Assembly (NCBI GenBank): GCA_013360395.1
Contig: JABWBQ010000001.1
Coordinates: 62,001-126,000, forward strand
Direction: 5' to 3'
Length of the DNA stretch: 64,000 nt
Source: Flavobacteriales bacterium
GTDB taxonomy: Bacteria; Bacteroidota; Bacteroidia; Flavobacteriales_F; PHOS-HE28
The notes under the pieces were generated by a model. The model saw nothing but the letters and a program-made list of their open reading frames with translations, was not told the origin of the DNA and did no database searches. Made by a program: the position numbers and the translations under genes. How positions within the stretch are numbered: position 1 is the stretch's first letter; each line of letters starts with the position of its first letter. This document shows positions 33,303 through 41,520 of the stretch, one piece after another.

Positions 33303-33346
33303 GTAGCGCGGGAGAGACTTGAACTCTCGACCTCAGGATTATGAAT
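33303..33346 (-). repeat. attL: 44-base copy of the 3' part of tRNA-Met
   Basis: Identical over 44 bases to 41446-41489, which is the anticodon loop to 3' end of the intact tRNA-Met. Sequence beyond 33346 diverges from the tRNA, so this is a non-functional fragment produced by integration. Confidence 0.93.
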
Positions 33347-33493
33347 AATGCGCGTGTCATTTTCCATGGCTTTACCCCGATGGGCCTTTCCCTTGCCCTG
33401 TGCTGAAAACGCTTGTCCGGTAAGAGACAAGGAAGGACAATCCCCCTTCCGCTTGTTTCCCCCTACATTTACCCCATCATTTACCCCACCCCC

Positions 33494-34747
33494 ATGGCAG
33501 GCGCAAGTATCAACCTCCACCCCAAGGCAAAATCGCAAGGCTTCAGCGCCCGGTTCGTATGCCTCACGGGTAAGACCGTCAAGGGCGAAATGCACCCGGT
33601 CCGGCTTCAGTTGATCCATAACCTGAAGGTGAAGCGCTTCAGCACGGGAGAGGCATGCACGCTTAATGAATGGGACGCGGACGCTGGCCGCATGAAGCCC
33701 CGAGCGAAGAGCGCCGCCGCCGTGAACCGCGTGCTGAACGCAATGGAGGCCCAAGTGGTGAGCATCGTGGATGCGCTGGTGGTGCATGGCACCCTTTCGC
33801 TGAATGCCTTCGAGGCCCGTTACCGCAACCCCAAGGCCAGTGCCGATGTACTGGCATACATGGAGGGGCTAGCGCTCAAGTTTACGAAAGAGGGGCGCAT
33901 TGGCTACGCCGGAACCTTCCGCACCGCCTCCGCCGCCCTGGGGCGCTTAACGACCGGCAAGCCTATCCGCTTCGCGGACCTCACCGCCGCCAAGCTTGAA
34001 GAGCTTGAGGCCATGCTTAAGGAAGAGGGCGGCACAGGAGGCGGGATCGCCGCCTACATGCGGACAATCCGCGTGGCCATCAATACCGCGATCAAAGAGG
34101 GCCACATGGCAGCGGACCAATACCCCTTTGAAACCGCCACCCATGCGGGCTATTCCATGAAGCGGCTGAAGAGCGGCGCCACTCCCCGCGCATTGGATGC
34201 CGCCGATATGGACAAGCTCAAGCGCTTCCCATTCGATAGGGCACCACACCTGGCCGAGAGCGTCCGGTACTTCCTCTTCAGCTACTATGCCGATGGGATG
34301 AACTTTCAGGACATTGCACGCCTGAAGCCTGAAAACCTAGTGGGGGGGCGCATCTTCTACGCTCGGAAAAAGACCGGGCGCCCCATCAATATCCCGTTGG
34401 ATGAGGTGCTTTCGGGCATCCTTGCCACCTTCGAGCATGACGGCCCCTACCTCTTCCCCATCCTTGGTGCTCAGCACGTCACGGACCAACAGCAATGGGA
34501 CCGGATCCGGAAGTGCCTCAAAAAGGTGAACGCCGATCTGAAGGAAGCCGCCGAGATGGTGGGCATCCGAACGAACCTCACCACCTATGTAGCCCGGCAC
34601 ACGTCCTTCACCACCCTCTACCGTAATGGGGTGGCGCTGGAGCACATTTCCGAGCTTGCCCGGCATAGTAGTCCAGCCGTTACCCAGCTCTACCTCCGAG
34701 AGCTTGGGTGCGATGTGCTGGACGAAGCCCGTAAGAAACTACGATGA
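33494..34747 (+). CDS. Tyrosine recombinase (integrase) of the tRNA-Met element
   Basis: A 417-residue site-specific recombinase. An arm-binding N-terminal domain and a core-binding SAM-like domain (about 95-200) precede the catalytic domain. Catalytic elements: the beta-strand Lys in GGRIFYARKKTGRPINIPL, the Arg of TTYVARHTSFTTL, the His of ELARHSSPAVTQ and the nucleophile Tyr in QLYLREL. At the usual first catalytic Arg the sequence is FSYYADGMNFQDIARLKPE, lacking Arg, as known for IntDOT-type integrases of Bacteroidota. The start at 33494 (MAGASINLHPKAKSQGF) is preferred over 33413. The gene adjoins attL. Confidence 0.92.
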   Translation: MAGASINLHPKAKSQGFSARFVCLTGKTVKGEMHPVRLQLIHNLKVKRFSTGEACTLNEWDADAGRMKPRAKSAAAVNRVLNAMEAQVVSIVDALVVHGTLSLNAFEARYRNPKASADVLAYMEGLALKFTKEGRIGYAGTFRTASAALGRLTTGKPIRFADLTAAKLEELEAMLKEEGGTGGGIAAYMRTIRVAINTAIKEGHMAADQYPFETATHAGYSMKRLKSGATPRALDAADMDKLKRFPFDRAPHLAESVRYFLFSYYADGMNFQDIARLKPENLVGGRIFYARKKTGRPINIPLDEVLSGILATFEHDGPYLFPILGAQHVTDQQQWDRIRKCLKKVNADLKEAAEMVGIRTNLTTYVARHTSFTTLYRNGVALEHISELARHSSPAVTQLYLRELGCDVLDEARKKLR

Positions 34748-34750
34748 GCG

Positions 34751-36127
34751 ATGGCGAAGCGCACCCCCAAGGCTGAAGGGCGGAAATGGTACACCGCTAC
34801 CATGGAACTCGTGGCCAAAGGCCCCGGATATCCATCGGCGCAAACTATCGAAGTGAGGACCACCAATAAACCTAGGGTAAGTGAATACCTAGCCGGACGT
34901 GGCTATAAATGGTCACGCATCACGATAACGGAGGGGCGATGTGCTGGTAGTGTACACTTGAACGTGGATAAGGAGGCAGAGCGATACCATGCCGAGCTTG
35001 AGGCGATGCTAGGGAAACGTCTCCCACCGCGATACAATAACGGGCCGTTCACCGTGGGATACGCCGCCGCCGAGGTGATGGATAGCGATGCCCGCAGGCG
35101 TTGGGCAGAGTACTTGGAGATGTGGTCCCATGGGCTTTCGGTTAGCCCAGTTCCTCATCACCTTATCGGCGATGCCGTAGACGTGCTATACCTACCGGCA
35201 CGGTGGGTGCAAGCTTTTGAACATTGGGACCGATGTACCGAAGTCGTTCAGGCCGCGCTAAGGAAGAGAAAGGACCATTGCGCCCACATGGCTGAACATT
35301 ACAAGGGCGAACGATCGCCCGAGGCGCGGGAACTGCGAAAGGGGTACCTCACCGCCGTGAAGAGCTTGGATGCGCTGGAGGGCTGGACCTTCCCCGCTTT
35401 CGTGGGGCGCTTGAACCTTGACCGCAGCCCTTCGCCTTTCGACGTACCCCACCACGGCTTGTTGGATATGGCCACCTCACACATGGTGCCCACCATGCCC
35501 CCCAACGGCGAACACCTGAAGGTGGAATGGTGGCGGCAACTGCTGGCCGCTTGGGATGGCCCCGCCAATACCAAGGCGGCAACGGTGGAACAACTGCTGG
35601 ACCACCATCACCGCCATGGTGGGAGGGCCGAGGTATTCCGCGCCTTGGTGAAGAGCACCGCGAAGCGCCTGCATGCGATTAAGGACACAGGTGGCAAGGG
35701 TGCCGAGCATTGGGAAACGTTGGCCGATGTGCTGGAGCAATGGCTGTCCATGGCACCCAAGGTGCATGCACAAGGGAAGACCTCCACCACGGCGACGGCT
35801 CAGGGGAAGCGTCCAGACTTGAAGTTGGTGGCTTTGGTCCATGCACTTCGATACTTGACCGGGGATAAGAGCGCGGATATCACCAGGATAAATGCACAGG
35901 CGCTGGCTGTTGGCGCTGGAGCAACGGGCAAGGAGAGCGGAAGGGACCTCCTCAGACATTACACACGCTACACGATGGGCAAGGACCACCACGCCCAACG
36001 GCTAGACGATGCGGAGTCCTACACCGTGAAGACACGCTATCTCGCCGCAATCGCAATGCTCGTAGATCACCAGAAGGCCAAGGCCATGGCTGAGGCTGAA
36101 CTGGAAGAGCTACGCGAACGAGAATAA
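34751..36127 (+). CDS. Unknown protein of the tRNA-Met element, 458 residues
   Basis: Starts 3 bases after the integrase stop, so it is probably co-transcribed. No signal peptide or membrane segment. The N-terminal ~100 residues (MAKRTPKAEGRKWYTATMEL) may form a small alpha/beta domain; the rest is mainly helical, with repeated Trp/His residues (FEHWDRCTEVVQAALRKRKD, EHWETLADVLEQWLSMAPKV) and an acidic, possibly coiled-coil end (AKAMAEAELEELRERE). I do not recognise the family. Position next to the integrase in Bacteroidota elements is often taken by regulatory or accessory proteins. Base composition is among the least GC-rich in the window. Confidence 0.75.
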   Translation: MAKRTPKAEGRKWYTATMELVAKGPGYPSAQTIEVRTTNKPRVSEYLAGRGYKWSRITITEGRCAGSVHLNVDKEAERYHAELEAMLGKRLPPRYNNGPFTVGYAAAEVMDSDARRRWAEYLEMWSHGLSVSPVPHHLIGDAVDVLYLPARWVQAFEHWDRCTEVVQAALRKRKDHCAHMAEHYKGERSPEARELRKGYLTAVKSLDALEGWTFPAFVGRLNLDRSPSPFDVPHHGLLDMATSHMVPTMPPNGEHLKVEWWRQLLAAWDGPANTKAATVEQLLDHHHRHGGRAEVFRALVKSTAKRLHAIKDTGGKGAEHWETLADVLEQWLSMAPKVHAQGKTSTTATAQGKRPDLKLVALVHALRYLTGDKSADITRINAQALAVGAGATGKESGRDLLRHYTRYTMGKDHHAQRLDDAESYTVKTRYLAAIAMLVDHQKAKAMAEAELEELRERE

Positions 36128-36237
36128 GCTTCGGAAAATAGGGGGCCACATTGTGGCCACATTCTCACCCCACCGCGAAAGGCCCGGAGAATTTTGCCCT
36201 ATTGCTCGGGATAACATCCCCCGAGCGTTGAGGCAAG

Positions 36238-36543
36238 ATGAACGCGAACCCTTTCGAGATCCTTGAGGCCAAGCTGGATGCCCTGGCCGTGGATGTGCGG
36301 GCACTGAAGAGCCGCACCAAGGAAGCCCCACCCGATGAGATCGGGGGCATGGAACTGGCCGAGGCCGTCACGGGACTGAGCCGGAGCACCTTATACAAGA
36401 AAACCTTCAGGCGGGAGATCCCACACCGCAACGTGCATGGGCGGCTCTACTTCCGCCGCTCGGAGCTGGAGGCTTGGCTGGATGCCGGGCGCCGCCCGCT
36501 GGCCGAAGAGATCGCTCACGAACGAATGGAAGAAAAGAAATGA
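36238..36543 (+). CDS. Helix-turn-helix excisionase-like protein
   Basis: A 101-residue protein. The N-terminal third is a short helix with coiled-coil character (MNANPFEILEAKLDALAVDV). Residues ~38-85 form the MerR/Xis-type winged helix of Bacteroidota elements: MELAEAVTGLSRSTLYKKTF for the helix-turn-helix and IPHRNVHGRLYFRRSELEAW for the wing. The acidic/basic end is AEEIAHERMEEKK. Such proteins direct excision or control replication genes downstream. It follows a 110-base gap after the previous gene and probably begins the replication operon. Confidence 0.88.
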   Translation: MNANPFEILEAKLDALAVDVRALKSRTKEAPPDEIGGMELAEAVTGLSRSTLYKKTFRREIPHRNVHGRLYFRRSELEAWLDAGRRPLAEEIAHERMEEKK

Positions 36544-36589
36544 GCCGGGAGCACTGCGAATGCAACCCGGCCCGAAATTCTGCTGAGAC

Positions 36590-36859
36590 ATGCCAAAGAT
36601 AAACCACCCCGACGAAGAGCGGACCGATCCCAACGGAACGCCGCTCTACCTACGTGTTGAGCTATTCGTGGCCGGATGGTGCCGCCGCACGTTCACCACC
36701 CGTGCATCGGACCTGAAAGAGCTGGCCATGGCGCTGGAGGGCTTCCAAGATGCCAACCTGGATGCCACACACCTTGACGTGTTCGCCTTCGCCAAGATGG
36801 CAGGGCTTGTGCTTCGCCGCTGGCCGAGTGTTCCACGCAGGCAATACCGCAGGCGATGA
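36590..36859 (+). CDS. Small unknown protein of the tRNA-Met element
   Basis: An 89-residue soluble protein (MPKINHPDEERTDPNGTPLY...) with a beta-rich start (YLRVELFVAGWCRRTFTTRA) and an Arg-rich end. Family not recognised. Its stop overlaps the ATG of the DUF3987 gene by 4 bases, so it is translated from the same mRNA as the ATPase. Confidence 0.65.
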   Translation: MPKINHPDEERTDPNGTPLYLRVELFVAGWCRRTFTTRASDLKELAMALEGFQDANLDATHLDVFAFAKMAGLVLRRWPSVPRRQYRRR

Positions 36860-38262
36860 GCACGGCCACCAGGATCACACCCGAGCAAGTGGAGGGCGCC
36901 ATGCGCATCGAACACGCAAGGCCCACCGCCGAGGTGGTGGTACCGCCATTCCCGCTGGAGGCGCTCCCCGAACTGCTGGCTGATTACGCCCGAGAGCTGG
37001 AGCGGTTCAACGGCTTCCTCCTGGACTACACCGGAGCGGGCATGCTCTTCGCCGCATGCACGGCGATCGGGAACGCCGCACACCTTCAGGTGAAAGAGGG
37101 CTACACAGTACCGCCCATGCTTTGGCTGGTGAGCGTCGGGCGCCCGTCCATCGGAAAGACCCACCCGCTTAATGCCATGGTGAAGCCCTTGGCCAAGCGG
37201 GATGCACGCACCAAGCGCGAACACGATACCAGGGTGAGGGAATGGGAATCCGCTCAGGAGGATCGCCGTAAGCGAAAGGGCGGCAAGGATGCCCCACCGG
37301 AGGAACCGCCTTCACCTCGGCCTGTATGGCGCCCCCACCTTGTGGACGATATCACCATGGAGGCGCTGCTGGCCAAGCTGGCGGCAACGCCCCGAGGGGT
37401 GGGCCTGCATTGCGATGAGCTAGGCGGATGGCTGGCAGGGATGGACAAGTACCGCAAGGGTGGGGACCGCCAAAAGTGGCTTTCCATCTTCAATGGATCC
37501 CAGCTCAGCGAGATCCGAAAGACGGCTGGGGAGCATGTTGTGCGCCTTCCGTTCGTGGCCGTAGCTGGTGGGGTGCAACCAGGCAAGCTGCATGACCTCG
37601 GCCGCGATCATGACGGCTTCCTCCACCGCCTGTTGTTCGTGTATCCCGATGAGCAGTTGAGGCGTTACGCATCCAAGTTATCGGTGAACGCTGCATGGGG
37701 CGAGACATGGGACAGAGTGCTGGAGCAACTGCTGGAGCTGGAAATGCGCACGGTGGATGGGGAGCTGGAACCGATCCTGATGCACTACACCGAAGCCGCC
37801 GCCGAGGTATACGCCCGATGGGACCGAATGAACACGGACCGCACGAACGCCGCGAATGCGTCCGGCGATGAGCTAAGCGCCGCCCTCTTCGGCAAGCTGG
37901 ACACCTATGCCCACCGGCTGGCCTTGGTGCTGGAACTATTGCACCGGGCATGCACGGGCGAAGGCCATGCCCGAGAGGTGAGGGCTGAAGCCGTGGAGGG
38001 TGCGCTGAAGCTGCTGGAGTACTTCGAGGCTTGTGCAAGGAAAGTGCATTTCCAGCTCTTCGAGGCCGATGCCGTGGACCGTTTGCCGCCACTGAAGGGC
38101 CGCGTTTACGCCGCCCTGCCTGAGCGCTTCACCACTGGCGAGGGCACCCATATCGCCCAGGCGATGGGTATGCCGCCCTCCACCTTCAAGCGCCTGTTGA
38201 GGGATGGGCACCTCTTCCGCAAGGCCCGCCACGGGGTGAACGTGAAGCTGAAGGACGCATGA
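36856..38262 (+). CDS. DUF3987 domain protein (replication ATPase)
   Basis: A 468-residue P-loop protein of the DUF3987 group, common in Bacteroidota integrative elements and thought to act as the helicase part of their replication module. Walker A is SVGRPSIGKTHPL (about residues 94-101); the Walker B-like segment is GVGLHCDELGGWLAGMD. Other family features: KWLSIFNGSQLSEIRKTAGE, FVAVAGGVQPGKL and DGFLHRLLFVYPD. The C-terminal ~60 residues contain a helix-turn-helix-like part (IAQAMGMPPSTFKRLLRDGH). It overlaps the previous and next ORFs by 4 bases. Confidence 0.88.
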   Translation: MSTATRITPEQVEGAMRIEHARPTAEVVVPPFPLEALPELLADYARELERFNGFLLDYTGAGMLFAACTAIGNAAHLQVKEGYTVPPMLWLVSVGRPSIGKTHPLNAMVKPLAKRDARTKREHDTRVREWESAQEDRRKRKGGKDAPPEEPPSPRPVWRPHLVDDITMEALLAKLAATPRGVGLHCDELGGWLAGMDKYRKGGDRQKWLSIFNGSQLSEIRKTAGEHVVRLPFVAVAGGVQPGKLHDLGRDHDGFLHRLLFVYPDEQLRRYASKLSVNAAWGETWDRVLEQLLELEMRTVDGELEPILMHYTEAAAEVYARWDRMNTDRTNAANASGDELSAALFGKLDTYAHRLALVLELLHRACTGEGHAREVRAEAVEGALKLLEYFEACARKVHFQLFEADAVDRLPPLKGRVYAALPERFTTGEGTHIAQAMGMPPSTFKRLLRDGHLFRKARHGVNVKLKDA

Positions 38263-38501
38263 GCTACACGATACCCATGGACTTTTTGGCCTTTTTGGTC
38301 CTTTCCGCCATGGGCGCGGGATTCGGAGGGTATACGGGTGGTCCTTTCGTGGTCCTTTGGTCCTTTCGGATGTGGTGGCAAAGGACCACTTGGACCATGA
38401 AAAGACCACCCCATACCTCGGGAAATGCTTATCCCCGTAGCAAAGGACCAAAAGACCAAAAGGACCACACCTCTAACATGCACACCGATGGCCGTGGCTG
38501 A
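38259..38501 (+). CDS. Small ORF spanning the repeat cluster (doubtful gene)
   Basis: An 80-codon frame that starts with an ATGA overlap to the DUF3987 gene. It has one hydrophobic stretch (MDFLAFLVLSAMGAGFGGYT) and then low-complexity sequence dictated by the GGTCCTTT and AAAGGACC repeats. The overlap favours translation, while the repeat-driven C-terminal half argues against a folded protein. It could be a leader-like peptide or chance. Confidence 0.3.
   Translation: MSYTIPMDFLAFLVLSAMGAGFGGYTGGPFVVLWSFRMWWQRTTWTMKRPPHTSGNAYPRSKGPKDQKDHTSNMHTDGRG
38288..38466. repeat. Iteron-like cluster of GGTCCTTT in both orientations
   Basis: Exact GGTCCTTT occurs at 38297, 38340, 38351 and 38359 on the plus strand, the last two directly in tandem. 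Exact AAAGGACC (the reverse complement) occurs at 38380, 38442 and 38459. Degenerate copies lie at 38288, 38390, 38401 and 38451. Plus copies are all on the left and inverted copies all on the right, with the switch near 38368-38379. The location between the ATPase and primase-type genes of an excisable element suggests a replication origin or an operator. Confidence 0.75.
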
Positions 38502-39564
38502 GGCACACCGCTACACCCTGGAACGCTACACCGGACCGAGATCGAAGCACACATGCCCGAGCTGTGGGCACCGGCGATGCTTCAAGCGCTACGTGGATTC
38601 GGCCACCGGTGAGCACCTCGCCGAGCATGTAGGGCGATGCGATCGGGAGGACCGATGCGCCCACCATGTGAAGCCCCGCGAATATTTCGCCGCTGGTGGT
38701 GAGCGCCCATCGGGAGAATGGACACCGCCACCGATGCCGCCCGAGCTTCCCGGCTACCGGATGGCCCGCGAAGATGTACGCCACACCGTGGGCAAGCCTT
38801 GCCACCTGCTGGAATACCTCAGCGCCAAGGCCGGGCTGGATGCTGAGCAGGTGAAGCGCACCGCGTGGGAGTATTGCGTGGGCGGCTGGCCTGAGCCGGG
38901 CAAGTACCTCGGCGCTGCCGCCTTTTGGCAGGTGGACCGTGCCGGGCAAGTACGCACCGCGAAAGTGGTGCAATACGATCCCAGCAACGGCCACCGCGTG
39001 AAGGGTGCCGCATCGTGGGCACATGCCTTAGCTGGTGGCATCCCCGAGGGCTTCCGCCTGGATCAATGCCTCTTCGGTGAGCACCTGCTGGACAAGTACC
39101 CCGAGGCGCCCGTGGGCATCGTGGAGGCGGAGAAAACGGCCCTTGTGGCACGGCTGCTGGTGCCTTCGGTCCTATGGCTGGCCGTGGGTGGCCTTGGTGA
39201 GCTGAAGCTGAGCAAGCTCCTACCATTGGCAGGCCGTCACGTTACCCTGTGGCCCGACCTCGGCAAGGGCTTCACGGAATGGAGCGCCAAGGCATCCGAG
39301 CTGGCCCCGCTCTTCACTTCGCTGAAGGTTGCGGACCTGCTGGAAAGGGTGGCCACCGATGCCGAGCGGGAGCAAGGGCTGGACTTGGCCGATTACCTAT
39401 TGAGCCGAAGCGCTGAAGAGCAGGTCATGCCGAAGGCGCCGCCCCCGGAACGCATTGCCGCCGAAGTACTGGCCTTCATGCAGCGGCACCCGGCATGCCA
39501 AGTGCTGGCCGATGAGGTGGACATGGATCTGTCCGCTGCAATAGTCCAACCTCTACCTGCCTAG
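38488..39564 (+). CDS. Zinc-finger/Toprim-like primase-type protein (DUF6371-like)
   Basis: A 358-residue protein. The N-terminal zinc finger has CPSCGHRRCFKRYVD, then HVGRCDREDRCAHH (about residues 22-60), as in primase-type DNA-binding fingers. The C-terminal half has a Toprim-like pattern: VGIVEAEKTALVARLLVPS (Glu near the first strand), VLWLAVGGLGELKLSKLLPL and HVTLWPDLGKGFTEW (acidic D-x-G). Pairing with DUF3987 is typical of Bacteroidota element replication modules. The start at 38488 is chosen because it lies just beyond the repeat cluster; 38425 is possible. Expected role: priming replication of the excised element. Confidence 0.8.
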   Translation: MAVAEAHRYTLERYTGPRSKHTCPSCGHRRCFKRYVDSATGEHLAEHVGRCDREDRCAHHVKPREYFAAGGERPSGEWTPPPMPPELPGYRMAREDVRHTVGKPCHLLEYLSAKAGLDAEQVKRTAWEYCVGGWPEPGKYLGAAAFWQVDRAGQVRTAKVVQYDPSNGHRVKGAASWAHALAGGIPEGFRLDQCLFGEHLLDKYPEAPVGIVEAEKTALVARLLVPSVLWLAVGGLGELKLSKLLPLAGRHVTLWPDLGKGFTEWSAKASELAPLFTSLKVADLLERVATDAEREQGLDLADYLLSRSAEEQVMPKAPPPERIAAEVLAFMQRHPACQVLADEVDMDLSAAIVQPLPA

Positions 39565-39567
39565 ACA

Positions 39568-40191
39568 ATGGGACGCAGCTATACCGGTAGTTCCACGGTT
39601 TACGAATGCCCACGGCTGAATCTATCCCAGCTCCGGAGGGCGGGCTACTTCAGCAAGGATGCCGAGGTCCGGGGAGCGTGGAGCTGGACTAGCGGGGAGG
39701 TGGTGAACATCACCACGGTGGGCAAGGGGGCTGAGGTCCACATGGAACTGAGCTACACCTGGACCGATCCCTACACGGGCAAGCCGGAAGAGGTCCGGCA
39801 ACGAATCGACATGGTGAGGAAGCCGAGCAACCTCGGCCGGGGGACCGTGCTCTACTTCCTCTGCCCATACACAGGACGTCCGTGCCGAATCCTCTACCGT
39901 GCATATTCCGCCCGTACGTACCGCAGTAGGTGGGGCTTCAGCTACCGGCTCTATTACCCCGGCCAAGTGTGCGGCAAGCTGGACCGATGGAACACCCGCT
40001 ATTGGGACCTGGAGCGCCACCTGGAGGGCATGGAGCGGATGCGTAGCCCCGGAACCTACCGGGGAAGGCCCACGAAGCGGGCGCAACGTTGGGAGCGCCT
40101 GCTGAGCGAACTGGATCGCATGGAGCTACTCAGGTGGTCCCCGGCATCGTTCCCCAAACGGCTACGGTCCGTGCTATCGGGGAGGTCATAA
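39568..40191 (+). CDS. Unknown Tyr/Arg-rich protein of the tRNA-Met element
   Basis: A 207-residue protein starting 3 bases after the primase-type gene. It is rich in Tyr, Trp and Arg (YFLCPYTGRPCRILYRAYSA, FSYRLYYPGQVCGKLDRWNT) and has two Cys in a CPYTGRPC knuckle that recalls a zinc-binding site. A basic helical end follows. No family is recognised. The strongly basic, aromatic composition would suit nucleic-acid binding, which is inference only. Confidence 0.65.
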   Translation: MGRSYTGSSTVYECPRLNLSQLRRAGYFSKDAEVRGAWSWTSGEVVNITTVGKGAEVHMELSYTWTDPYTGKPEEVRQRIDMVRKPSNLGRGTVLYFLCPYTGRPCRILYRAYSARTYRSRWGFSYRLYYPGQVCGKLDRWNTRYWDLERHLEGMERMRSPGTYRGRPTKRAQRWERLLSELDRMELLRWSPASFPKRLRSVLSGRS

Positions 40192-40211
40192 GTCCTAAGG
40201 AGTTCGGCTAT

Positions 40212-40877
40212 CTATTGCCGACGCGCTGCGCGTTGAAGTAGCCTCCCTGCCTTCCGCTCGGCATCGGCGGCACCAATCGTTAGCACCGTCGAAGCGATTA
40301 GCCCAGCCCCAGCGACGGCACCTCCAATCGCAACGCCGGAATCGGACGAAGCATCCAAGGCAAGGGCAAGCCCAGCCCCGAGAGCAAGTCCACCAAAGCC
40401 AAGAATCGCAGCCGTACCCCGCCGCCTGCCTGCCTCTTCAAGTCGCATTCCAGCAAGCTGGAGCGCTTCAAGGTCCATGGGAACGGACATCATATCCACG
40501 CGGGGCGGTGCATCTATGGGCTTACCATTGGTAACCTCAGGGCGGTAAGCCGTGGGAGTGGCCTCCATTGTGATGTCCAGCGTGGTGGTGAACCCATTCT
40601 GGATCTTCACCTCATACTTCGCAAACGTCAGATAGCCCTCATTCGAGGCCCGGACCATGAACACACCTTTGGGCAGGTGCTCCATGAAGTACCGCCCCTT
40701 GGCATCGGTCCGTGTTGATGCTATCGCGCTGTCCCCGCTCACCACCTCAACAAGCACATGTTCAAGCGGGGCCTGTGTCCGTGTATCTGACACGCTGCCG
40801 GACAACCTCCCCCTCCCATCGTTGCAATAGCTAAGGAGAGGCAGGGCCAAAAGGAGGGTGAGGGCATGGTAGCGCAT
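40212..40877 (-). CDS. Exported protein with carboxypeptidase-regulatory-like domain
   Basis: A 221-residue protein with an N-terminal signal peptide (MRYHALTLLLALPLLSYC); the Cys after LLSY may be lipidated, although Tyr before it is unusual for a lipobox. Residues ~25-110 form a CarboxypepD_reg/Ig-like domain: GSVSDTRTQAPLEHVLVEVV, STRTDAKGRYFMEHLPKGVF and VRASNEGYLTFAKYEV. The C-terminal third has a Gly/Ala-rich hydrophobic segment (GTAAILGFGGLALGAGLALA) and a basic end. It is the only minus-strand gene of the element, probably a cargo gene acting at the cell envelope. Confidence 0.75.
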   Translation of the reverse strand: MRYHALTLLLALPLLSYCNDGRGRLSGSVSDTRTQAPLEHVLVEVVSGDSAIASTRTDAKGRYFMEHLPKGVFMVRASNEGYLTFAKYEVKIQNGFTTTLDITMEATPTAYRPEVTNGKPIDAPPRVDMMSVPMDLEALQLAGMRLEEAGRRRGTAAILGFGGLALGAGLALALDASSDSGVAIGGAVAGAGLIASTVLTIGAADAERKAGRLLQRAARRQ

Positions 40878-40908
40878 GGGCAAGAATTATCTTGCCGAAC
40901 ATACACGA

Positions 40909-41163
40909 ATGGGCGATAAACTCGGCCTCTACGCATTCAACGCCCTGCCCATCGGGGAGCGGGCACAAGCCCTGTGGGACGGCGGGGCCTTCATCGGCGC
41001 CACTGACCACCCCGAGGGGCGAAGCGCCTTCTACACGTTCGCGGACTATTATGTGGAGGTGCTACTGGTGGGCGATCCCGAGCGCATTGTGGAGGTCGTT
41101 CCATTCTACACCGGCCCCAGGCTGGAGCGGATGCTCAGCGTTATCGACGTGACCAAGCTCTGA
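40909..41163 (+). CDS. Small unknown protein of the tRNA-Met element
   Basis: An 84-residue soluble protein starting MGDKLGLYAFNALPIGERAQ. It contains LWDGGAFIGATDHPEGRSAF and YTFADYYVEVLLVGDPERIV, and ends LERMLSVIDVTKL. This pattern is similar to short orphan proteins often found in Bacteroidota mobile elements, but no family or function is assigned. An alternative ATG at 40876 would overlap the start of the divergent exported-protein gene by 2 bases, so 40909 is preferred. Confidence 0.65.
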   Translation: MGDKLGLYAFNALPIGERAQALWDGGAFIGATDHPEGRSAFYTFADYYVEVLLVGDPERIVEVVPFYTGPRLERMLSVIDVTKL

Positions 41164-41166
41164 ACG

Positions 41167-41340
41167 ATGAAGACCGCCCGCCGCATCCTTGAGACCCTCG
41201 GGGGGCTGCTGGTGGACTTCGTGGGCCTCTTCCTCGGCTACCCTGAGCGGGAAGGGGGCCAACGCCGTACCGTTGGGGAGGCCCTCCTTTTCCTCGGCCT
41301 CCTGGCCGTGGTCATGGCCCTTTTCATCACCGCATCCTGA
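41167..41340 (+). CDS. Small single-pass membrane protein of the tRNA-Met element
   Basis: A 57-residue protein starting MKTARRILETLGGLLVDFVG, with a C-terminal hydrophobic segment (ALLFLGLLAVVMALFITAS). It starts 3 bases after the stop of the preceding small gene, which supports co-expression. Function unknown. It is the last gene before the right end of the element. Confidence 0.55.
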   Translation: MKTARRILETLGGLLVDFVGLFLGYPEREGGQRRTVGEALLFLGLLAVVMALFITAS

Positions 41341-41396
41341 AGCGGCCGGAAGCACCCTTCGCGGGCCGATTATTTGCCCCCTTATTTACCCTAGAT

Positions 41397-41433
41397 CTAA
41401 AAGAAGAAGCCCCGGCATTTCGCTCGGGGCCTT
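41397..41433 (-). terminator. Element-borne intrinsic terminator for the restored tRNA-Met
   Basis: On the minus strand GGCCCCGAG, a loop and CCGGGGCT are followed by TCTTCTTTT. It sits 14 bases beyond the 3' end of the tRNA, inside the element, and would replace the host terminator displaced to 33277-33302. Confidence 0.7.
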
Positions 41434-41445
41434 GTCCTTCTAAGA

Positions 41446-41489
41446 GTAGCGCGGGAGAGACTTGAACTCTCGACCTCAGGATTATGAAT
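41446..41489 (-). repeat. attR: 44-base direct repeat within intact tRNA-Met
   Basis: Identical to 33303-33346. It runs from the anticodon loop to one base past the discriminator of the tRNA, which places the strand-exchange region inside the tRNA 3' half. Confidence 0.93.
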
Positions 41490-41520
41490 CCTGCGCTCTG
41501 ACCAGCTGAGCTACCGCGCC
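41447..41520 (-). tRNA. tRNA-Met (anticodon CAT)
   Basis: A 74-base cloverleaf on the minus strand. Acceptor stem GGCGCGG pairs with CCGCGCT (first pair G-U), the D-arm is GCTCAGCTGGTCAGAGC, the anticodon arm is CAGGA-TTCATAA-TCCTG, and the T-arm GAGAG-TTCAAGT-CTCTC follows; the discriminator is A. The first pair and lack of an initiator-type C1-A72 mismatch point to an elongator tRNA-Met, although a tRNA-Ile2 with modified CAT cannot be ruled out by eye. It forms the right boundary of the integrative element. Confidence 0.92.

Follow-up and report, generated by a model that had tools for sequence, protein, structure and literature searches.

The window, by which we mean the whole 64,000-nt stretch of Flavobacteriales DNA that was analysed, contains a small integrative element inserted in a tRNA gene and bounded by attachment repeats (Table 1). 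Its genes run from the integrase through a 458-aa protein, an HTH_17 protein, an 89-aa protein and the DUF3987 protein P0001 to an array of short repeats, and continue beyond it with the Zn_ribbon_16/DUF6371 protein P0002, a 207-aa protein and two small cargo genes. A CarboxypepD_reg (carboxypeptidase regulatory-like) gene on the minus strand (40212-40883) is apparent cargo of the element. The 458-aa protein had no match in Pfam at E<0.1 or in PHROG at E<0.01, and among the nine element proteins no phage packaging gene product was recognised and no Pfam match to relaxase families or to the known Rep initiators RepA_N and Rep_3 was found. A second species of the genus carries the same element in the same tRNA at 98.1% identity over 8.15 kb, whereas the flanks align at 81-87% (apart from one 93.9% alignment that spans the element and a 59-nt piece at 93.2%), which indicates recent transfer.

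Table 1. Features of the integrated element and of its repeat array (positions in the window)
Feature	Position	Strand	Remarks
Whole element	33303..41445		8,143 bp; integrated in tRNA-Met
Left attachment repeat	33303..33353		51 nt; 96% like right copy
Tyrosine integrase	33413..34747	+	Arm-DNA-bind_5, Phage_int_SAM_5, Phage_integrase; start codon uncertain
458-aa protein	34751..36127		Directly after integrase
HTH_17 protein	36238..36543	+	Excisionase-like (Pfam, PHROG)
DUF3987 protein P0001	36856..38262	+	Predicted MCM-like AAA+ helicase fold, C-terminal winged helix
Converging iteron array	38278..38467	both	Unit TGGTCCTTT; 6 copies per side, in triplets
Left outer triplet	38278..38304	+	TGGACTTTT, TGGCCTTTT, TGGTCCTTT; 9-nt spacing
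Left inner triplet	38339..38366	+	Three exact TGGTCCTTT
Array centre	38367..38379		13 nt; 31% AT
Right inner triplet	38380..38408	-	Exact TGGTCCTTT, TGGTCCAAG (read by eye), TGGTCTTTT
Right outer triplet	38442..38467	-	TGGTCCTTT, TGGTCTTTT, TGGTCCTTT
Zn_ribbon_16 + DUF6371 protein P0002	38488..39564	+	Predicted DnaG/T7-type primase fold
Right attachment repeat	41446..41496		Inside tRNA-Met gene, its 3' part
tRNA-Met	41446..41520	-	

The two genes that flank the array encode proteins with predicted replication folds. P0001 belongs to DUF3987 (E 2.8e-53) and to PHROG 2373, DNA helicase. The best Foldseek matches of its model (mean pLDDT 86.9) are MCM proteins, and superposition on 7plo chain 4 gave Z 17.4 over 265 residues at 3.7 A and 13% identity; the Foldseek lists show ranked matches only, such that the absence of Cch from them is uninformative. 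A PDB sequence search with A1 yielded nothing convincing. P0001 is thus predicted to combine the AAA+ core of the MCM fold with a C-terminal winged helix, modelled as helices 427-436 and 441-448 followed by a wing at 454-464. DUF3987 has been described as a predicted novel helicase of mobile elements, frequently found in fusion with a primase and a winged helix (PMC5862659), and has served as a marker gene for PICMIs (PMC10803314). The model of P0002 is best matched by the T7 and DnaG primases (1nui, 3b39, 1eqn, 2au3), and the protein is predicted to be a DnaG-type primase with a zinc ribbon and a Toprim catalytic fold. Helicase gene, facing sites and primase gene form a replication module.

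Facing repeats between the predicted helicase and primase genes

The array consists of 12 copies, roughly 9 nt each, of TGGTCCTTT, seven of them exact, and lies wholly within the 225-nt gap from the DUF3987 stop at 38262 to the ATG of the Zn-ribbon/DUF6371 gene at 38488, its first copy beginning 16 nt past the stop. With at most two mismatches, the 9-mer occurs on the plus strand at 38278, 38287, 38296, 38339, 38350 and 38358 and on the minus strand at 38380-38388, 38400-38408, 38442-38450, 38450-38458 and 38459-38467; the twelfth copy, TGGTCCAAG at 38389-38397 on the minus strand, has three mismatches and is weaker. Start-to-start steps from the centre outward are 8, 11, [43], 9 and 9 nt on the left and 9, 11, [42], 8 and 9 nt on the right. 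The shorter GGTCCTTT is exact on the plus strand at 38297, 38340, 38351 and 38359 and on the minus strand at 38380, 38442 and 38459, in agreement with the four left and three right copies counted in a preliminary description of this DNA. That description had placed the array at 38288-38466 with its two orientations facing each other around 38373; the array itself and its polarity stand, all copies converging on 38367-38379, while the left edge moves slightly further left, to 38278.

The window holds 10 copies of GGTCCTTT against 0.91 expected, a count reached in 0 of 100 shuffles, and the array has a convergent-motif score of z=11.8, with convergent orientation at 11 of 11 sites. Chance is rejected as the source of the array by the shuffle counts and the orientation-aware motif test. 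The preliminary description had suggested counting the 8-mer elsewhere in the genome: a search of the element's own genome for GGTCCTTT-N(0-40)-GGTCCTTT returned four matches, all in the array, and the reversed control none. It had also argued that coding constraint does not account for the repeat density, and this holds, since homologues of P0002 start the gene at ATG 38488 and not at 38425, and nothing supports the 80-aa frame that covers the array. A terminator reading of the array was likewise rejected. The spacers at 38305-38337 and 38412-38441 contain short sequences (GCGGG-like on the left, CCCCGTAGC on the right) in common with L007-L009, relatives that use another unit, and these may be additional protein sites.

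Conservation of place and polarity in relatives

Within the genus, 9 of 45 genomes carried a DUF3987 gene, as did 26 of 395 from the class, 30 of 395 from the phylum and 22 of 123 from one Bacteroides-type family; a profile search gave 36/218, 12/98, 63/201, 1/4 and 22/229 genomes, the weak matches of which include other proteins that share the C-terminal part only. Relatives are few in viral contigs (none for P0001, three loci for A3, six for A4 and two for A5), so the elements are mostly absent from viral collections. From 130 loci with a winged-helix-bearing match, 110 remained after removal of exact duplicates, and those scoring at least 240 bits were grouped at 80% identity into 49 clusters. 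Loci with less than 200 nt downstream (e.g., L010) were excluded, L072, whose frame ends early, was counted within the L024 cluster, and by hand L056 was excluded and the fragment L089 added; when L056 was tested later, its array gave p 0.0495 and both of the recognition rules described below were right.

Plain counts of 5/6-mers against shuffles were clearly significant for the larger arrays only, and because short degenerate arrays escaped them we used an orientation-aware motif test that is blind to the protein, with 100 shuffles per locus. By this test, a convergent array (p<=0.05) follows the DUF3987 gene in 40 of 49 clusters, 30 of which reach the p floor, compared with 7 of 49 control windows inside the gene and 9 of 48 placed 500 nt downstream (60 shuffles each), control rates that, at 14% and 19%, themselves exceed the nominal 5%. 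Mean z is 3.83 for the arrays vs 0.45 and 0.77 for the controls. Same-strand neighbours show a spacing mode of 9 nt (86 of the 151 steps between 8 and 14 nt), the commonest number of copies per side among 37 scored arrays is three, and the array centre is AT-richer than the span in 17 of 31 arrays. No significant array was found in nine of the 49 clusters (L082, L101, L041, L116, L083, L120, L028, L108 and L054), six of which have p 0.05-0.12 and what look by eye to be weak arrays. In L042, L120 and L121 the helicase frame continues 34-41 codons past the winged helix, and the array lies inside this coding tail.

The unit itself differs between related elements, which carry a converging array in the same place built on TGGCACTTT, TGGCGG, TTGCAGTTT or TGTCGGTTT, the arrangement with other repeat units that the preliminary description had suggested looking for. 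Related elements that keep the flanking genes but lack an array had been named there as evidence against an origin; the array persists in 29 of the 33 clusters with a DUF6371 gene, and it is present in 11 of the 16 in which DUF6371 was undetected.

Plasmids carry the same arrangement in places. The complete circular Salinibacter plasmid pSR11 (11,534 bp) has an array after a Toprim-DUF3987 fusion (z 5.8), and a scan of its 17 proteins found no other known replication family and no RepA_N or Rep_3 match. The alphaproteobacterial Bartonella tribocorum plasmid NZ_HG969193.1 (L185/L189) has a GGTTTTGAAGG / CCTTCAAAACC array after adjacent toprim and DUF3987 genes, its best stretch reaching z 8.4; because RepC is also annotated there, it does not isolate a DUF3987 replicon. 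Two of the three other plasmids scanned (Sulfitobacter and Rhodovastum) showed no clear array.

The position of the array ahead of a primase gene raises the question of whether it is an autoregulatory operator, through which the DUF3987 winged helix or another element protein would control the downstream gene. In favour of this, 33 of 49 clusters have the DUF6371 gene directly downstream, and many tandem sites can make up an operator, but the array also occurs in the clusters without detected DUF6371 and after the pSR11 fusion, the reader indicated by the covariation described below is part of a predicted helicase, and a scan of 38200-38600, which covered sigma-70-type promoters and no other types, found no promoter-like site. 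An operator in place of an origin is therefore unlikely in our judgment, and the two roles could coexist.

Covariation of unit spelling with the helicase winged helix

Units from 46 of the 49 clusters (three with p>0.12 were dropped) were registered without protein information and share one pattern, nT[GT]GC[AG]NWTT, with the T-tract toward the centre; the analysis was repeated on all 49. Each unit position was tested against each of 417 columns of the DUF3987 protein, and the ranking of every column against all the others, which have the same phylogeny, was used as the control. For unit base 2 the top column was 449, corresponding to R446 (R2adj 0.80); for bases 5 and 6 it was 448, corresponding to K445 (R2adj 0.71 and 0.46); for base 3 it was 445, corresponding to S442 (R2adj 0.35); and for bases 8 and 9 it was 464, corresponding to wing residue 461 (R2adj 0.37 and 0.58). 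The top column for base 4 fell outside the winged helix, and columns 271 and 449 (R446) tied for base 1. In the P0001 model, residues 442-446, which include S442, K445 and R446, lie in the recognition helix 441-448, and residue 461 lies in the wing. Columns 449 (base 2) and 448 (bases 5 and 6) stayed first at unit widths of 7, 8 and 9 and with all 49 clusters, S442 led for base 3 at the widths of 7 and 8 and dropped to fourth at 9, and column 464 took second place for the two final bases at widths 7 and 8 and led for one late base when the width was 9. None of columns 449, 448, 445 and 464 ranked first in either control set. An earlier covariation test based on CG vs CA/TG counts, superseded because the search for some motifs had covered the wrong stretch, had already ranked column 448 first.

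Two rules summarise the strongest associations. G at base 2 is found in 23 of 24 clusters with R446 and in 3 of 22 without it (Fisher 8.5e-9, a p-value that, like our other association p-values, ignores phylogeny), the exceptions being L078, L082, L030 and L179. G at base 5 is found in all eight clusters with E, Q or D at 445 and a basic residue at 442, vs 2 of 38 others, with L078 and L028 as exceptions and, if residue 442 is ignored, also L170, L172 and L089, in which D445 occurs with Ser442. The cleanest natural experiment on unit vs recognition helix is the sister pair L025 and L164, in which FKRF goes with TTGGCA and FKKF with TTGCA: from L025 to L164 every left-hand unit core changes from TGGCA/TGACA to TGCA and the centre GGCGATTGTG is unchanged, the two winged helices differing at other residues as well.

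On a tree of the helicase part alone (45 of the 46 clusters), only 6 and 5 independent switch pairs are available for the two rules, and the unit switches in the expected direction in about 4.5 of 6 and 4 of 5, compared with 1.0 and 0.2 in the opposite direction. Neither count is significant by sign test, and the phylogenetic test is thus suggestive support for the covariation. The rules were also fixed in advance and applied to loci unused until then, mostly distant proteins, some of them fetched earlier but below the score filter. A significant array (p<=0.05) was present in 20 of 37 such loci, 37 being all new rows tested after 15 rows with a winged helix at least 80% like that of a known cluster were set aside. 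The base-2 rule was right for 16 of these 20 (G in 5 of 7 with R446 and in 2 of 13 with other residues). The base-5 rule was right for 10 of 20, the level of a coin flip, among mostly distant proteins, and we accordingly confine it to the close family. Several distant proteins, many of them longer (L137, L130, L133, L061, L068 and others), have a matching winged helix and converging arrays, and the pairing of reader and array may extend beyond DUF3987.

From these comparisons, the spelling of the unit appears to follow the C-terminal winged helix of the helicase. The preliminary description had suggested testing the HTH protein at 36238 (HTH_17) or the zinc-finger protein (the zinc-ribbon protein P0002) for binding; the covariation points instead to the winged helix of the ATPase encoded upstream.

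The facing arrangement could also suggest a hairpin, in which the array would act in single-stranded form as a start site for the primase or for strand transfer, or as an RNA element, and not as a set of double-stranded sites. The window strand folds at z=-6.9, and in a test of the 35 arrays that have p<=0.05 and two or more copies on each side, unit variants in their natural order gave better pairing than after permutation (mean rank 0.34, p=0.004). For the window itself, however, 71% of permuted orders fold better, as do 94% for L007 and 92% for L012, so the fold in these three follows from facing repeats alone; moreover, Rfam has no family matching the array, and the unit tracks residues in a recognition helix, which reads double-stranded DNA. 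We consider a hairpin function very improbable as the explanation of the array. In L019, L020, L021, L044, L114, L115 and L181 the unit variants are mirrored between the arms and pair strongly, beyond what repetition of the unit accounts for, and in those lineages this may be a sign of symmetric assembly or of a role as a hairpin.

A candidate origin and its relation to known replicons

The array, the conservation of its place and polarity, the turnover of its unit, the covariation with the winged helix and the predicted folds are, in our view, best explained if the array is the replication origin of the element, recognised by its own DUF3987 initiator helicase through the winged helix, a reading we hold to be highly probable and one that upholds the candidate origin of the preliminary description. 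In the mechanism we infer, the winged helix would bind iterons of ~9 bp (TGGTCCTTT in this element), residues 442, 445 and 446 of the recognition helix reading the unit core and the wing near 461 reading the T-tract. The facing half-arrays would then allow helicase rings to assemble head to head and, once the element is excised, to melt the centre, and the priming of synthesis would fall to the DnaG-like DUF6371 primase from the gene that follows the array. Every lineage would have a private unit that is changed across the whole array together with the residues that read it. We speculate that two hexamers occupy the 6+6 sites of the window; the idea is speculative because the commonest count in the 37 scored arrays is three a side. 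A broader proposal is that DUF3987 marks a class of self-addressed replicons, widespread in Bacteroidota and present on some plasmids beyond that phylum, with an MCM-like protein that both initiates and unwinds, a specificity rewritable through two to three recognition-helix residues, head-to-head hexamers on six-site half-arrays, and neither a separate origin-binding protein nor a loader; we offer this tentatively, as somewhat less likely to be right than wrong.

That the C-terminal domain of an initiator helicase reads iterons downstream of its gene is already known from SaPIs and, biochemically, from SCCmec Cch2, and the best reading of the array parallels these islands with a different helicase family. 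The SaPI Rep C-terminal domain is described as recognising iterons just downstream of its gene (PMC7581432), the layout of PICI origins has been described (PMC6092414), and in both the helicase gene is followed directly by two iteron sets, as here (PMC7581432, PMC6092414). Unlike the SaPI and PICI Reps, which have DUF927 or Primase_Cterm, P0001 matches DUF3987, and no AT-rich region separates the iteron sets (centre 31% AT). The primase gene here follows the origin and is DnaG-like, in contrast to the primases of SaPIbov1 and SaPI5, which are described as AEP family members. The SCCmec helicase Cch has been described as close to MCM, in line with the predicted fold of P0001, and the C-terminal domain of Cch2 as binding repeats just downstream of its own gene (PMC7581432); the Pfam family and the phylum differ, and the Cch2 sites are described as direct repeats, in contrast to the facing arrays. 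In the PLE satellites of Vibrio cholerae, the DNA-binding domain of the initiator RepA covaries with the origin (PMC8263062), a likeness qualified by several differences: the initiator is of the RepA_N type with no predicted helicase activity (PMC7145576), the iterons are about 30 bp, and the described covariation concerns whole modules, as opposed to single residues across 46 lineages here.

Relatives that carry a relaxase share the gene order of the window element, as in NBU1-type elements. NBU1 orf3 and prmN1 presumably correspond to DUF3987 and DUF6371. NBU1-type elements also have a tyrosine recombinase and integrate at the 3' end of a tRNA gene (PMC5704250); unlike them, the window element has no recognised relaxase among its nine proteins. 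According to a review of IMEs, NBU1 excision requires, in addition to the integrase and an RDF, a large region containing oriT, a portion of the relaxase gene and two genes (PMC5704250). This requirement, together with the MobC and relaxase genes that follow DUF6371 in a Bacteroides relative, invites the idea that the array serves excision or transfer, as a set of accessory recombination sites or as an oriT, and is read by the HTH_17 protein or a relaxase. Such a function is scarcely credible given that the attachment repeats are some 5 kb and 3 kb away from the array, that 0 of 9 element proteins match a relaxase in Pfam, that the unit spelling tracks the winged helix of the helicase, and that pSR11 carries an array yet is typed non-mobilizable.

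For the replication origin that we favour, precedent within the family is partial. An origin-reading winged helix has been suggested for a protein of plasmid PolpTN2 (PMC5862659), and the passages describing PrimQH/All3500 and the PICMI DUF3987 proteins locate no origin or recognition code (PMC5862659, PMC10803314). Our searches of the open-access literature turned up no paper that assigns DUF3987 an origin or a recognition code, which is weak evidence of novelty.

Our analysis provides two families of unknown function, DUF3987 and DUF6371, with a candidate function and a testable mechanism, and it locates likely origins for numerous small integrative elements, and for some plasmids, in Bacteroidota. 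Initiator helicase and origin have been respelled together in about 46 lineages, which form a natural data set, and origin specificity and its rewiring are directly testable, for example by R446K against a change of one base. In PLEs, the phage nuclease attacks the iterons (PMC8263062), and by analogy it is plausible that such attack drives the change of spelling here too. The findings also suggest a reason why such elements coexist, namely that each origin would answer to its own helicase only.
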